64,000 bases of DNA from Burkholderiaceae bacterium (GTDB lineage: Bacteria; Pseudomonadota; Gammaproteobacteria; Burkholderiales; Burkholderiaceae_E), in NCBI GenBank assembly GCA_021166725.1, contig JAJPES010000008.1, forward strand, positions 1-64,000. Direction: 5' to 3'. The translations under genes and the position numbers were made by a program. The notes under the pieces are model-generated. The model saw nothing but the letters and a program-made list of their open reading frames with translations. It was not told the DNA's origin and searched no databases. Shown here in pieces: positions 2,527-47,874 of this stretch; position 1 is the first letter of the stretch, and each line of letters begins with the position of its first letter.

Positions 2527-3507
2527 ATGAAGCTGCTCGCCCATCTCACGAAGAACCTCGCGCTCGCGATCCCCATCGCGATGCTGCTCGGCCTGCTGTA
2601 CGGCCTGGTCGCGCCCTCGGCGTGGCTGCGCGCGCTGATCGTGCCGCTCACGCTGCTGATGGTCTATCCGATGATGGTCGGGCTGCAGCCGCGCCAGCTG
2701 CTCGAAGGCGGCGACCTGCGCGCGCAGTGGATGGCGCAGGCGATCAACTTCGGCGTGATCCCGTTCGTCGCGTTCGCGATCGGTCGGCTGTGGTTCGCCG
2801 ACCAGCCGTATTTCGCGCTCGGCTTGCTGCTGGCCTCGCTGCTACCCACCAGCGGAATGACGATCGCGTGGACCGGCTTCGCCCAGGGCAACGTTCCGGC
2901 AGCGATCAAGATGACCGTGGTCGGACTGGTCCTCGGCTCGCTCGCCACGCCGTTCTATCTGCAGTGGCTGATGGGCGCGGTGGTGCCGGTCGACCTCGTC
3001 GCAGTGTTCGTGCAGATCGCGCTCGTCGTGCTGCTGCCGATGCTGCTGGGCCAGCTCACGCGCGAGTGGCTGGTGCGCCAGCACGGACGCGAAGCGTTCC
3101 GCAAGGAATGGGCGCCGCGCTTTCCGCCGTTGTCCACGCTCGGTGTGCTGGGCATCGTCTTCGTCGCGCTGGCGTTGAAAGGCGGCGATCTCGTCGCGCG
3201 CCCGGCGCTGCTGGTCGACGTGCTGGTGCCGCTGGTGGCGCTCTATGCGTTCAACTACGCTCTGGCGATTCTCGTCGGACGGCTCGCGCTGCCACGCGGC
3301 GACGCGATCGCGCTGGTGTACGGGACGGTGATGCGCAACCTGTCGATTGCGCTCGCGCTGGCGATGAATGCGTTCGGGGCGGGGGGTGTCGATGCTGCGC
3401 TGCTGATCGCGGTGGCGTATGTCGTGCAGGTGCAGTCGGCGGCGTGGTCGGTGCGGCTGACGGGGGTGTTCGGGGCGAAGCCGGCAGTGCCGTCGGCGGG
3501 ACGCTGA
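2527..3507 (+). CDS. Bile acid:sodium symporter / ACR3-like transporter
   Basis: About 10 hydrophobic segments; LLASLLPTSGMTIAWTGFAQGN and YGTVMRNLSIALALAM typical of the BASS/ACR3 superfamily. Confidence 0.8.
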   Translation: MKLLAHLTKNLALAIPIAMLLGLLYGLVAPSAWLRALIVPLTLLMVYPMMVGLQPRQLLEGGDLRAQWMAQAINFGVIPFVAFAIGRLWFADQPYFALGLLLASLLPTSGMTIAWTGFAQGNVPAAIKMTVVGLVLGSLATPFYLQWLMGAVVPVDLVAVFVQIALVVLLPMLLGQLTREWLVRQHGREAFRKEWAPRFPPLSTLGVLGIVFVALALKGGDLVARPALLVDVLVPLVALYAFNYALAILVGRLALPRGDAIALVYGTVMRNLSIALALAMNAFGAGGVDAALLIAVAYVVQVQSAAWSVRLTGVFGAKPAVPSAGR

Positions 3508-3515
3508 GGGCGCGG

Positions 3516-3621
3516 GCAAAGGCGGGGCCATCGGCCGCAGTGGGCCGGTTACGCGCTGCGCGCCGGTCGGGTGGCGGGCAGCGCATAACCGGCCCATTGC
3601 GGCCGATGGCCCCGCCTTTGC
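3516..3621. repeat. Long inverted repeat: two 44-bp arms (42/44 identical), 18-bp loop
   Basis: GCAAAGGCGGGGCCATCGGCCGCAGTGGGCCGGTTACGCGCTGC (3516-3559) versus GCAGCGCATAACCGGCCCATTGCGGCCGATGGCCCCGCCTTTGC (3578-3621). Confidence 0.95.
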
Positions 3622-4037
3622 AGGCGACCTGCTTTGTTGCCAACCGAAACAACCCCGGTGTTACCGCGTGGCGCGTTTTGCACGCGAACAACAAGGGTCG
3701 GCAAAACAAACCCGCCGCCGCAATTCGACGACACCGCGGTGCGTCAGCGCCGCAGAGACCGCGGCCCTTTCAACGAGATCGAATCGCGCGAAATCCGCGT
3801 GGTCCTGGCCGAGCGATCGGCAGCACCAGCGGAAACGCGCGGAAAGCGAACACCGGCGTCCGCGTCCGTCCATGCGCGCGCCGAAATGCGCGGCAAGCGC
3901 GCATTCCCGGCCGCACCGCGATGGACCGGATGTGAGGGAGCAACGCGATGACGGATCGCGTGCTCGCGAGTCTCGCGCAAGACCTCGCTGTGCACGATCG
4001 CGCCTCACTCGCCTGCGAACGCGGCGAGCGTGCTCGA

Positions 4038-4402
4038 GCGGCAATCGGCAGCGGGCCGGCCCCAGAGGCCTGCGGCGGGGCGCCGCCAGGCGGGCACGGC
4101 CCACGGCGAGCGCTTCCGCCGGGCGGTGCGACCTCTGCGGCGCCGAGCAGCGCAGCCTCGGGGTCGGCGCGCGAAGCGCGCTTCGTACGTCTGACTCGCG
4201 GCGGCATGTCTGAGCGCAGCGAGCGAAGCTCGCGAAGCGAGTTCCGCCGCGCGACCCCGAGGTGAGCAGCGGAGGGAAGTCGGCGCGCAGCGCCGACCGC
4301 CGCAGCGGGAGCGCCGCCCGGCGGAGGCGCTCGCCGTGGGCCGTGCCCACCTGGCGGCGCCCCGCCCAAGGCCTCTGGGGCCGGCCCGCTGCCGATTGCC
4401 GC
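4038..4402. repeat. Large inverted-repeat element: two 89-bp arms with 4 mismatches, 187-bp centre that also folds
   Basis: Arms 4038-4126 and 4314-4402, aligned by hand; internal arms CCTCGGGGTCG (4156-4166) and CGACCCCGAGG (4252-4262). Confidence 0.92.
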
Positions 4403-4430
4403 GATCGCACCAAACGCCGCACGAAGCCGA

Positions 4431-6305
4431 TCACGCCTCGAACTGCATCGCCGCCAACCGCGCATACAACCCACCCCGCTCGATGAGTTGCGCGTGCGTG
4501 CCGATCTCCACCACGCGCCCGTGGTCCAGCACCACGATGCGGTCCGCGCCGACGATCGTCGACAGCCGGTGCGCGATGACGATCGTCGTGCGCGACTGCA
4601 TCGCGCGCTCGAGCGCCGCCTGCACCGCGCGCTCGCTCTCGGCGTCGAGCGCGCTGGTCGCTTCGTCCAGCAGCAGCAGCGGCGGGTTGCGCAGCAACGC
4701 GCGCGCGATCGCGATGCGCTGGCGCTGCCCGCCGGACAGGCGCACGCCGCGCTCGCCGAGGAAGGTGCGGTAGCCGTCGGGAAGGCGCTCGATGAACTCG
4801 TGCGCATTCGCCGCCTTCGCCGCATCGATGACTTCCGCATCGGTCGCATCGAGCCGGCCATAGCGGATGTTCTCCATCGCGTCGGCGGAGAACACGACGC
4901 TGTCCTGCGAGACGAGTCCGATCGCGCCGCGCAGTTCGGCGAGATCGAGTGCACGGAGATCGACGCCATCGAAGCGGATGCATCCGGCCTGCGGATCGTG
5001 GAAGCGCAGCAGGAGCTGGAACATCGTCGTCTTGCCCGCGCCTGAAGGACCGACCAGCGCCACCGTTTCTCCGGGCGCGATGGCCAACGTGACCGCTTCG
5101 AGCGCGAGTTCGTGCGGCCGCGACGGGTAGCGAAAGCTCGCGCCTTCGAAACCGACGGACGCGCCCATCACGCGCGCTGGCAACGGCTGCGCAGCACGCG
5201 GCGAGACGATCGACGGCTGTGCATCGAGGAGTTCGAGCAGCCGCTCGGTTGCGCCGACTGCACGCTGCACGTCGCCGAGCACCTCGGCGATCGCGCCGGT
5301 GGCGCCGGCCACCAGCGCCGAATACAGGATGAACTGCGTGAGCAGTCCTGCCGTCAGGCGCTCGTCGAGCACGGCCCGCGCGCCGAGCCACAGCACGAAG
5401 ACGATCGCGCCGAACACGAGCACGATCGCCAGCGCGGTGAGCAGCGCGCGCGCCCGCGTGCGGCGGATCGCGCTGGCGAAGGCCGCTTCGGTCGTTGCGC
5501 CGAAGCGTTGCGCCTCGAGCGGCTCGCGCACGTAGGCCTGCACGATCTGGATCGCGCCGAGCGTCTCGCCGGCGAGCGCGCTGGTGTCGGCGAGCGCGTC
5601 CTGGCTCGCGCGCGACAGGCGGCGCACGCGCCGCCCGAACACGAGGATCGGCAGCACGACGACGAGCAGCAGTCCGACGATGATCGACGCGAGCTCGGCG
5701 CTGGTGACGATCAGCATCGCCAGCCCGCCGACGAACAGCAGCGCGTTGCGCAAGCCCAGCGACACGCTGGTGCCGACGAGCGTCTGGATCAGCGTCGTGT
5801 CGGTATTCAGCCGGGAGAGCACCTCGCCGGTCTTCAGCGTCTCGAAGAAACGCGCGTCCTGCCGCATCACCTGCCGATAGACCGCGCGGCGAAGGTCGGC
5901 GGTAACGCGCTCGCCCAGCCAGGACACGCTGTAGTAGCGCAGTGCCGTACCGAGCGCGAGCACGACGGCGACGCCGAACAGCGCGACGAACCAGGTGTCG
6001 ACGTGGCCGGAGAGCGCCGCACCGGCAAGACCCTGCGGCGAAGCGAAGCCGACGTCGATCATCCGCCGGAATGCGAGCGGGATGACCAGCGTCGCGGCTG
6101 CTGCCACCAGCAACGCGCCCGCGGCAACGGCGACGCGCCCGCGGTACGGCGCCATGAACGGCCACAGCGCGCGCAGGATCGACAGCGAGCCGCGACCGGC
6201 ACTCGCGGCGGCGACTTGCGCCGTAGCGGCCGCAGCAGCCGAAGACGAGAGCGGACTCCTCGCGCTCAAGCGCTCGGCCGCGTCATGTCCTGCGGGCGCA
6301 CCCAT
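4431..6305 (-). CDS. ABC exporter, fused permease and ATPase (MsbA/ABCB-like); true start may be internal
   Basis: [21 protein letters not shown] (Walker A), [30 protein letters not shown] domain upstream. Annotated start overlaps fumC by 40 nt. Confidence 0.9.
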
Positions 6306-26742: not shown

Positions 26743-28320
26743 ATGGACACGGCAAGCGATTTCCGGCTCACCTACTCGACGATGTTCGATCCGCCCCCGG
26801 AGCTGCACGAGCGCTTCGACGCGGCGCTCTCGCAGGTATCGGGCGGCCTGGGCGCCGACCACGCGATGTTCGTCGACGGCTGCGAACGACACGCCGCATC
26901 GAGCTACGAGCTTCGTTCGCCGATCGACCGCGACCGGCTGATCGGCCGTTTCGCCGCCGGGCGGACCGAGGACGTGGACGCGGCGGTGCACGCCGCGCAG
27001 CGCGCCTATCCGGGTTGGTCGCACACGCCGTGGCCCGAACGCGTGGCGACGCTGCGCCGCGTGGCGGCGCTGATCGAGCAACGCGTCTACCCGATCGCTG
27101 CGGCGATGGCGATCGAGGTGGGCAAGAACCGGATGGAGGCGCTCGGCGAAGTCCAGGAGACGGCGGACCTGTTCCGCTGGTACTGCGACCAGTTCGAGCA
27201 GAACGACGGCTTTCGCCGCCAACTGCCGCACGACCCGCTGAAGGGCTTCGTCAGCCGCAACCGGACGGCGCTGCGTCCCTACGGCGTATGGGCGGTGATC
27301 GCGCCTTTCAACTTCCCGTTCGCGCTCGCCGGCGGCCCGATCGGGGCGGCGCTGGTCGCCGGCAACACGGTCGTCTTCAAGGTCGCGAGCGCCGCTTCGC
27401 TGTGCGGCCAGCTGCTGATGAAGGCGCTGCACGACGCAGGCGTTCCGCCCGGCGTCGCCAACCTGGTCAGCGGCGCCGGCGCGCAAGCCGGCGAAGCGCT
27501 GGTCGGGCATCCGGCAGTCGCCGGGATCACCTTCACCGGGTCGTACGAAGTCGGCATGGGGATCGTGCGCCGCTTCGCTCAACAGCGCTGGCCGCGACCG
27601 TGCATCGCCGAAATGGGCGGCAAGAACGCGGCGATCGTCAGTCGCAACGCCGACCTGGAACGCGCCGCCACCGGCATCTGGCGCTCGGCCTTCGGGCTGC
27701 AGGGCCAGAAATGCTCGGCCTGCTCGCGCGTGCTCGTCGAGCGCGAGGCGGCCGCCGAATTGCGCGAGCGTCTCGTCGTGGCGGCCGAAGCGATCGCGGT
27801 GGGCGATCCCACCAAGCGAGTCAACTGGATGGGGCCCGTCATCGACGAGCGCGCCCAGGCCCGCTTTCGGCGCTGCGTCGAGCGGCTGAAGGAGGTCGGA
27901 CGCATCTACGCTGGTGGACGCGTGCTCGACGAGGGAGCGCTGGCACGCGGCTGCTTCGTCGCCCCCACCGTGGCGCAGGCGCCGCGCGACGACGCGCTGT
28001 GGCGCGACGAGCAGTTCCTGCCGCTGGTACTGGTGAGCGAGGTGGATTCGCTCGACGAGGCGATTGACGAAGCAAACCGCTCCGACTACGGACTTACGGC
28101 GGGCTTCTACGGTGCGCCCGACGAAGCGCGACGCTTCCTCGACGAGGTCGAAGCCGGCGTCGTCTACGTGAACCGCCCGCAGGGCGCGACGACCGGCGCC
28201 TGGCCCGGCTACCAGCCCTTCGGCGGCTGGAAGGCGAGCGGCACCACCGGCAAGGCGATCGGCTCGTTCTGGTACCTGCCGCTTTACCTGCGCGAGCAGT
28301 CGCAGACGATCGTCGAGTAA
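26743..28320 (+). CDS. Aldehyde dehydrogenase family (possibly 1-pyrroline-5-carboxylate dehydrogenase-like)
   Basis: VIAPFNFPFALAGGPIGAALVAGNTVVFK, FTGSYEVG, EMGGKNAAIV, GLQGQKCSACSRV, PFGGWKASGTTGKA. Confidence 0.92.
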   Translation: MDTASDFRLTYSTMFDPPPELHERFDAALSQVSGGLGADHAMFVDGCERHAASSYELRSPIDRDRLIGRFAAGRTEDVDAAVHAAQRAYPGWSHTPWPERVATLRRVAALIEQRVYPIAAAMAIEVGKNRMEALGEVQETADLFRWYCDQFEQNDGFRRQLPHDPLKGFVSRNRTALRPYGVWAVIAPFNFPFALAGGPIGAALVAGNTVVFKVASAASLCGQLLMKALHDAGVPPGVANLVSGAGAQAGEALVGHPAVAGITFTGSYEVGMGIVRRFAQQRWPRPCIAEMGGKNAAIVSRNADLERAATGIWRSAFGLQGQKCSACSRVLVEREAAAELRERLVVAAEAIAVGDPTKRVNWMGPVIDERAQARFRRCVERLKEVGRIYAGGRVLDEGALARGCFVAPTVAQAPRDDALWRDEQFLPLVLVSEVDSLDEAIDEANRSDYGLTAGFYGAPDEARRFLDEVEAGVVYVNRPQGATTGAWPGYQPFGGWKASGTTGKAIGSFWYLPLYLREQSQTIVE

Positions 28321-28381
28321 AAAAACGGGGTCAGACCACGGTTTCGCTGAAGCGAAACCGTGGTCTGACCCCGTTTTTTTA
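28318..28381. terminator. Perfect 64-bp palindrome (31-bp arms, 2-nt centre), bidirectional terminator containing both flanking stop codons
   Basis: TAAAAAAACGGGGTCAGACCACGGTTTCGCT GA AGCGAAACCGTGGTCTGACCCCGTTTTTTTA. Confidence 0.93.
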
Positions 28382-29368
28382 CAGCGGCTTGCGCAGCAGG
28401 TGGGCGATCTCGCCGACGATACCGCGACGGAAGGCCAGCACGCACAGCACGAAGATCGCGCCCTGCACGATCGTCACCCAGGCGCCGATCTGCGCGAGAT
28501 AGTTCTGCATCGTGATGATCACGGCCGCACCGACCACCGGACCGAACAGCGTGCCCAGGCCGCCGACCAGCGTCATCAGCACCACCTCGCCCGACATCGT
28601 CCAGTAGACGTCGGTGAGCGATGCGAGTTGGAAGACCAGCGCCTTGGTCGCGCCCGCCAGCCCCGACAGCGTGCCCGACAGAATGTACGCGACGAGCTTG
28701 TACCGATCGGTGTCGTAGCCGAGCGAAGTCGCGCGCGGCTCGTTCTCGCGGATCGCCTTGAGCACCTGCCCGAACGGCGAATGCACGATGCGCCAGATCA
28801 ACAGGAAGCCGCAGAAGAAGACGACGAAGACGAGCGTGTACATCGCCACCGTGTCGTTCAGGTCTACGAGGCCGAACAGCTTGCCGCGCGGTACGCCCTG
28901 GATGCCGTCTTCGCCGTGCGTGAACGGCGTCTGCAGATAGAAGAAGTAGACCATCTGCGCCAGCGCGAGCGTGATCATCGCGAAATAGATGCCCTGGCGA
29001 CGGATGGCGAGCAGTCCGGTGACCCAGCCGAGCAGGGCCGAACAGGCGGTGCCGAAGACGATCGCCAGTTCGGGCGTGAAACCCCACACCTTCGCCGCAT
29101 GCGCCGTCGCGTAGCCGGCGGTGCCGAGGAACATCGCGTGCCCGAAGGACAGCAGCCCGCCGAAGCCGATGAGCAGGTTGAATGCACACGCGAACAGCGC
29201 GAAGCACATCACCTTCATCAGGAACACCGGATAGACGGCCAGCGGCAGCAGCACGAAGATCGCCGCCATCAGCACGAGCGCGTAACGCTGGTAACTGGTG
29301 TCGGCCTGCACGTGCAGGTGCGTCTTCGCGCCGGCCGGCGGCGCGAGCGTGGTGGTGTCGTTCGCCAT
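28379..29368 (-). CDS. livM: Branched-chain amino acid ABC transporter permease (LivM)
   Basis: FNLLIGFGGLLSFGHAMFLGTAGYA, GIYFAMITLALAQM, GALGTLFGP-like VGGLGTLFGPVVGA. Confidence 0.92.
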   Translation of the reverse strand: MANDTTTLAPPAGAKTHLHVQADTSYQRYALVLMAAIFVLLPLAVYPVFLMKVMCFALFACAFNLLIGFGGLLSFGHAMFLGTAGYATAHAAKVWGFTPELAIVFGTACSALLGWVTGLLAIRRQGIYFAMITLALAQMVYFFYLQTPFTHGEDGIQGVPRGKLFGLVDLNDTVAMYTLVFVVFFCGFLLIWRIVHSPFGQVLKAIRENEPRATSLGYDTDRYKLVAYILSGTLSGLAGATKALVFQLASLTDVYWTMSGEVVLMTLVGGLGTLFGPVVGAAVIITMQNYLAQIGAWVTIVQGAIFVLCVLAFRRGIVGEIAHLLRKPL

Positions 29369-47638: not shown

Positions 47639-47726
47639 TGAAATGCGCCTCCGCTGTTTAACTGAATGCCGTTCGCTGCAAGCGGCAAACCTGGGATTTT
47701 AAGGGATGTCAGCTGGGGACGCTGGG

Positions 47727-47874
47727 CGGAGGGAGGGGAAGGGGGAAGGGGGAAGGGGAAAACCGTCGCGACATCGCATAGGGATTGGAGGCGTGCGCGA
47801 GCACCACGAAACGTGGCGCCCGTCGCACCGGGGCTGTCCCCTTCCCCCTCCCCCTTCCCCCTCCCCTTTCCTCC
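47727..47874. repeat. Polypurine/polypyrimidine inverted repeat downstream of ftsZ
   Basis: GGCGGAGGGAGGGGAAGGGGGAAGGGGGAAGGGGAAAA (left) and CCCCTTCCCCCTCCCCCTTCCCCCTCCCCTTTCCTCC (right, ends 47874). Confidence 0.85.

Follow-up and report, generated by a model that had tools for sequence, protein, structure and literature searches.

What kind of element is the 365-bp inverted repeat that occupies an intergenic gap in a 64,000-nt stretch of Burkholderiaceae DNA (the window), and by what means do its two arms remain complementary? A reading of the sequence alone had offered three possibilities: a MITE-like element, a structured RNA, or a fold-back that joins two copies of a dispersed repeat in opposed orientation. 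The comparisons described here establish that the repeat is a member of a dispersed palindromic repeat family belonging to one betaproteobacterial genus, with patchy occurrence among the relatives of this genus. No paper describing this repeat family was found in the open-access literature.

The inverted repeat and its intergenic gap

The repeat, termed A, consists of 105-nt arms (4038–4142 and 4298–4402) that are 92% complementary and lie 155 nt apart. The 89-bp arms reported earlier (4038–4126 and 4314–4402, matching at 85 of 89 positions) were recovered within it, the outer 89 nt reaching 96%. The inverted repeat is far beyond chance: the 365-bp element folds with z-scores of −18.5 on one strand and −19.1 on the other, and none of 100 shuffles equals them. 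Among repeats with arms at most 700 nt apart, A is the longest in the window, and the only other one above 50 nt is the neighbouring hairpin B, which abuts the stop codon of the SBF gene; A follows the ABC transporter gene, and the two hairpins are parts of one unit (Table 1), which the sequence-only reading had missed along with B. Core A points the same way as the ABC gene it follows, the orientation relative to the preceding gene that nearly all copies have. The arms of the window's B hairpin are retained, and core B went undetected by searches. As the sequence-only reading had it, the gap is convergent, with the SBF gene on the plus strand (stop at 3507) facing the ABC gene on the minus strand (stop at 4431); the nested arms in the centre are present as described, and the gap carries no indication of a protein. 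In the A–B spacer, codon scoring did not indicate coding, and no match to this spacer was obtained at the other fetched loci. Element A contains no intrinsic terminator, defined as a GC-rich hairpin followed by a T-run, and three terminator-like sites sit in the spacer and at the edge of B. At Rfam gathering scores, tRNA alone was detected in the window and nothing for the element; the sub-threshold matches across 3480–4440 all fall on B and concern microRNA-precursor models.

Table 1. Features of the window copy and its flanking genes
Feature	Position	Strand	Remarks
SBF gene (bile acid:sodium symporter family)	2527–3507	+	flanking; start approximate
B hairpin	3507–3630	+	58-nt arms (90% complementary) around an 8-nt loop; like other B units, ends GGGCAAAGGCG / CGCCTTTGC
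A–B spacer	3631–4037	−	unusually long in the window copy
Distal arm of A	4038–4127	+	locus-specific; pairs with proximal arm; repeat reaches 4142 using core sequence
Core A	4128–4312	−	185-bp dispersed conserved part
Nested core arm CCTCGGGGTCG	4156–4166	+	partner 4252–4262; core helices covary
Nested core arm CGACCCCGAGG	4252–4262	+	partner 4156–4166; core helices covary
Gene-proximal arm of A	4313–4402	−	locus-specific; terminates GATC-GCGGCA, 28 nt past the ABC gene stop
ABC transporter gene (permease-ATPase fusion)	4431–6305	−	flanking; A lies behind it

Dispersal of the centre

With the 365-bp element as query, at least 31 matches were obtained in the source genome, mostly limited to the centre (query positions ~90–280, window ~4128–4317), and each copy has a flanking inverted repeat of its own, unlike that of the other copies. 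Copies elsewhere thus exist for the centre, whereas the window arms themselves recur nowhere else. The fold-back proposal is therefore wrong: the arms are unique to the locus and a single centre is dispersed. Several source-genome matches touch or lie near contig ends, and further copies have probably been missed for this reason. Copy numbers per genome are to be read as lower bounds. Most genomes are draft assemblies, and the palindromes disturb assembly, as seen in the runs of N within G002 arms. In G000, contigs C1, C10, C34, C37, C38, C46, C59, and C83 end in or near copies of the element, so that the assembly is broken at these places and the element undercounted. The core is carried by 17 of 18 genomes of the genus, G004 being the one without it, and G005 yielded at least 36 core matches; across the family the distribution is patchy (22 of 74 genomes, 4 of 16 genera). 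Copies are scattered across the chromosome, not arrayed like cassettes, and plasmids, phages, and viral contigs gave no match to the element.

Anatomy of the full unit

Along the reading direction of the preceding gene, a full unit comprises the stop codon, A, a spacer, B, and a tail. Hairpin A starts with a brief conserved end, in many copies GTCGCGGCA, followed by the locus-specific arm, core A, and the complementary arm terminating in TGCCGC. Hairpin B is built on an A-like plan in the opposite direction; its ends read AAAGGCGCGGGCC/GGCCCGCGCCTTTG, and its core has diverged. Core B was found downstream of A in 35 of the 63 copies with context, and paired A–B units measure 0.6–0.9 kb. The limits of the unit, and its recent dispersal, follow from near-identical units, short arms included, at no fewer than five loci of G002; judged by eye, the unit ends GTCGCGGCA... 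and ...GCGCCTTTG do not form an inverted pair. Across 80 cores, 41 of 69 predicted pairs show changes on both sides, a count that leans toward the predicted structure because this structure was predicted from the same alignment. The earlier proposal of a structured RNA thus stands with respect to structure, the core covarying; selection for pairing at the RNA level is a rather unlikely rival, weighed below.

Individual copies deviate from this plan. Some B units (L053, L073, L092) have an extra conserved hairpin (CCCGGGTGGCAAGGCGCGAACC...GCTGCCACCCGGGC) inserted behind core B. At the end of contig C41 of G014, positions 1–295 of L125, past the murA stop, show an A core turning into B-core sequence, reflecting an A–B deletion or an assembly error. 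The central hairpin of the core is interrupted in four loci (L014 from 1708, L016 before 131, L019 from 1604, L021 from 1668) by sequences with similar ends (...ATGGACGCCTCCC...), possibly insertion sequences targeting the repeat; the contigs end inside them.

Placement behind genes and insertion at empty sites

A gene of the same sense precedes A in 57 of the 62 copies with a called left neighbour, copies sit roughly 70–140 nt past a stop codon, and the distance from stop codon to core is mostly 70–200 nt. Copies lie in tandem (33) and convergent (24) contexts, and none occupies a divergent gap, with genes called by a simple codon-usage script for which five window genes served as the training set and the Pfam-confirmed genes as a control. 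Two gene pairs reveal the state before insertion. Between murA (assigned by TIGR01072) and hisG (assigned by its N-terminal sequence), the gap measures −4 to 58 nt in eight genomes of the genus (G000, G001, G002, G003, G008, G010, G011, G017) and, with the element, 951 nt in G005 and 931 nt in G009; the element also lies behind murA in G014, at a contig end, and in G006. In G015, this gap of 105 nt retains the right end only and is a deletion scar. An aminotransferase and a glycosyltransferase gene, named from reading their protein sequences without a family search, are 0 nt apart in G005, G006, and G016 and 765 nt apart in G002, where the element separates them. The element is therefore an insertion, because both sites are empty in relatives, and its dispersed copies together with these empty sites support the MITE-like interpretation.

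The check for target-site duplications gave a divided answer. In the empty-site comparison at the G002 aminotransferase–glycosyltransferase site, an 11-nt direct repeat (CGCTGACATGA) is present at both edges and spans the old junction, and L050 has an 8-nt direct repeat; a test of all 33 tandem sites was not significant (p ~0.06). Gene pairs separated by the element retain intact stop and start codons. At three loci, the right edge places GGAGCC(A/G)CTGA before the next start, which would provide a ribosome-binding site. Relic start codons directly past the upstream stop occur at 16 of 33 tandem copies, 2 of 23 convergent copies, and 4 of 39 control genes, an excess at tandem copies that is suggestive, the pattern having been noticed before it was tested. 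An RTGA overlap was rejected as a general target, being found at 6 of 33 tandem sites compared with a frequency of ~33% among all gene ends of the fetched loci.

Mirror symmetry and turnover of the arms

Among copies with flanks, the arms are complementary beyond the core in 64 of 72 for A and 36 of 42 for B, and the median arm among 67 measured units is 80 nt long with 96% identity. The median arm score of 135 compares with 23 (maximum 85) for arms mispaired between copies and 20 (maximum 29) for random places. Arm correction is neither instant nor universal, since 8 of the 72 A copies, including the murA copy of G006, are non-palindromic. Between loci, the arms of the 67 units are unrelated except in four pairs. 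The same holds for most orthologous copies: arms are 50–66% alike in eight of nine comparisons, at the level of unrelated arms (55–67%), whereas gene ends are 79–95% and cores 87–96% identical. In the ninth comparison (murA, L053/L073), the arms are still related (87–89%). The window site and its G012 ortholog have unrelated arms (0.57–0.59), and the A core of the ortholog lies in the opposite orientation. The idea that arms represent inverted host coding ends, for which L075 and L095 had first been suggestive, was discarded, as the coding parts differ and the arms just reach the stop codons.

Where arms can be aligned, in five pairs of copies, 46 substitutions are mirrored and 9 confined to one arm, and in the single pair with such columns, mirrored indel columns outnumber one-arm columns 5:1; these counts are not fully independent, coming from few pairs, some of which share a copy (L038, L073) and several of which are within-genome paralogs. 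Transversions are as frequent as transitions among the mirrored changes. Mismatches read in gene sense display no preference for G-U over A-C, neither in the arms (37:55; few mismatches, p = 0.076) nor in the core (30:131).

Comparison with known systems

The element works like a REP/BIME- or MITE-type repeat, but the REP hallmarks tested fail. Like REPs and BIMEs, which are palindromes tagged with GTAG or CGTC (PMC3733652), it is dispersed, lies mostly past coding regions in tandem or convergent gaps, and often forms opposed pairs. In contrast to the 20–40 bp of REPs, its hairpins span ~250–400 bp (365 bp for A) and combine a conserved core with locus-specific arms, and the stem, loop, and tail of the CGTC families do not fit it. 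Of the 31 units with a GCGGC-type start, 17 have an unpaired CGTC-like end ahead of the arm; the window copy has GATC in this place. With REPINs (PMC3116915), the element shares two opposed, related palindromes and a spacer that together form an apparent mobile unit, yet it is much larger and has no RAYT association. A drive by RAYT was rejected: among the 18 genomes of the genus, Y1_Tnp attained E 0.001 in no more than three and was absent from the element-rich G005 and G002, and the only RAYT-type gene of the source genome (L060) lies without a core in its vicinity, between GTGGTCTGACCCC repeats that are probably the REP family of this RAYT. In the window, a perfect 32-nt palindrome at 28317–28382 is built from opposed copies of GTGGTCTGACCCC. 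Elements of the MITE type, ERIC among them (PMC2229807, PMC10969869), are likewise small, non-coding, mobile, palindromic, and intergenic; the differences are that the A and B ends of the unit do not look like simple terminal inverted repeats and that a target duplication is well shown at a single site only. A further likeness concerns quasipalindrome template switching, which homogenises imperfect inverted-repeat arms and can invert the spacer between them (PMC8604942); quasipalindrome mutations occur in E. coli (PMC7202029). This mutational mechanism has been published for short repeats, whereas here it is proposed for arms of ~80 nt and for a whole repeat family.

Proposed mechanism and alternatives

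It seems fairly probable that the family is a non-autonomous dispersed palindromic element whose symmetry is kept by DNA-level templating and whose hairpin acts as a 3′-end barrier. The palindrome would perpetuate itself at the DNA level, during replication or cruciform repair, with one arm templating the other via template switching or intra-palindrome conversion. Mutations and indels of one arm would thereby be copied to the other, so that the arms could drift freely and remain mirror images, and the same process could flip the centre. Once transcribed, the hairpin may serve as a 3′-end barrier or insulator behind the gene. The mirrored changes and the lack of a G-U preference favour DNA-level templating, the simplest account, over RNA selection. 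The inverted core at the G012 ortholog of the window site would be explained by the spacer inversion published for template switching; alternatively, it could stem from an independent insertion. Evidence against this explanation comes from the failure to find a mobilising gene, from the non-significant test for direct repeats, from the eight non-palindromic A copies, and from the core tree, in which orthologous cores are not sisters; re-insertion or conversion at old sites could for this reason mimic fast arm evolution. A further and rather less likely reading is a mobile element whose locus-specific palindromes are brought along or quickly written by it: the core would nucleate repeated snap-back or template-switch copying, the arms would far outpace the flanks with mirror symmetry inherited, and insertion would prefer the stop/start junctions of coupled genes and split operons.

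Ordinary compensatory mutation might also keep the arms paired if the element were a 3′-UTR RNA (a terminator, RNase III substrate, or mRNA stabiliser), an account that agrees with the fixed orientation just past stop codons, the strong fold, and the many two-sided changes in core helices. It nevertheless appears rather unlikely, given that G-U mismatches are not in excess over A-C in arms or core, that mirrored transversions equal transitions in frequency, that A lacks a terminator T-run, and that arms at the unrelated level despite gene ends 94–95% identical would require many double events; it retains weight because the element nearly always occupies a transcribable 3′ position. Repeated re-invasion or conversion of sites by other copies, with arms arriving in the new copy and not evolving in place, is unlikely: cores do group partly by genome and not by locus, several G002 loci have arms in common, and L073 and L086 share both arms and core, but donor arms are nearly absent among the 67 units (the four related pairs), L034 and L084 have identical spacer stretches with different arms, and some orthologous arms align with mirrored changes (L053/L073).

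More doubtful still is a structured DNA site, used by an enzyme as a folded single strand in the manner of attC or IS200/IS605 ends, in which pairing is selected and arm sequence is not. Ends and core are conserved although the paired arms vary, A and B flank the unit in opposed orientation, and an RNA-type wobble bias is absent, all of which speaks for such a site; against it stand the failure to find a candidate enzyme, given the scarcity of Y1 (RAYT) hits and the different repeat that flanks the source-genome RAYT, and the scattering of copies. That the repeat is just a local terminator of unusual size, or an artefact of assembly, is hardly credible, even with several copies at contig ends and the trouble that repeats cause in assembly, as the same anatomy recurs in many independent assemblies, including genomes of three and four contigs, both flanking genes are attached to copies of the element, and the core is dispersed with sites empty in relatives.

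Covariation and repeats of the window

Covariation is widely taken as proof of structured RNA. In the present family, a long bacterial palindrome can be followed through dozens of natural replicates that differ wholly in sequence and retain the symmetry, which allows the question of whether covariation always reflects RNA structure or may also arise as a side effect of DNA palindrome copying. A repeat family that is large, oriented, and placed behind genes, apparently without a RAYT, is a further addition. Elsewhere in the window, positions 47724–47874 hold an inverted repeat made of a G-rich and a C-rich arm (GGGGGAAGGGGGAA / TTCCCCCTCCCCC).
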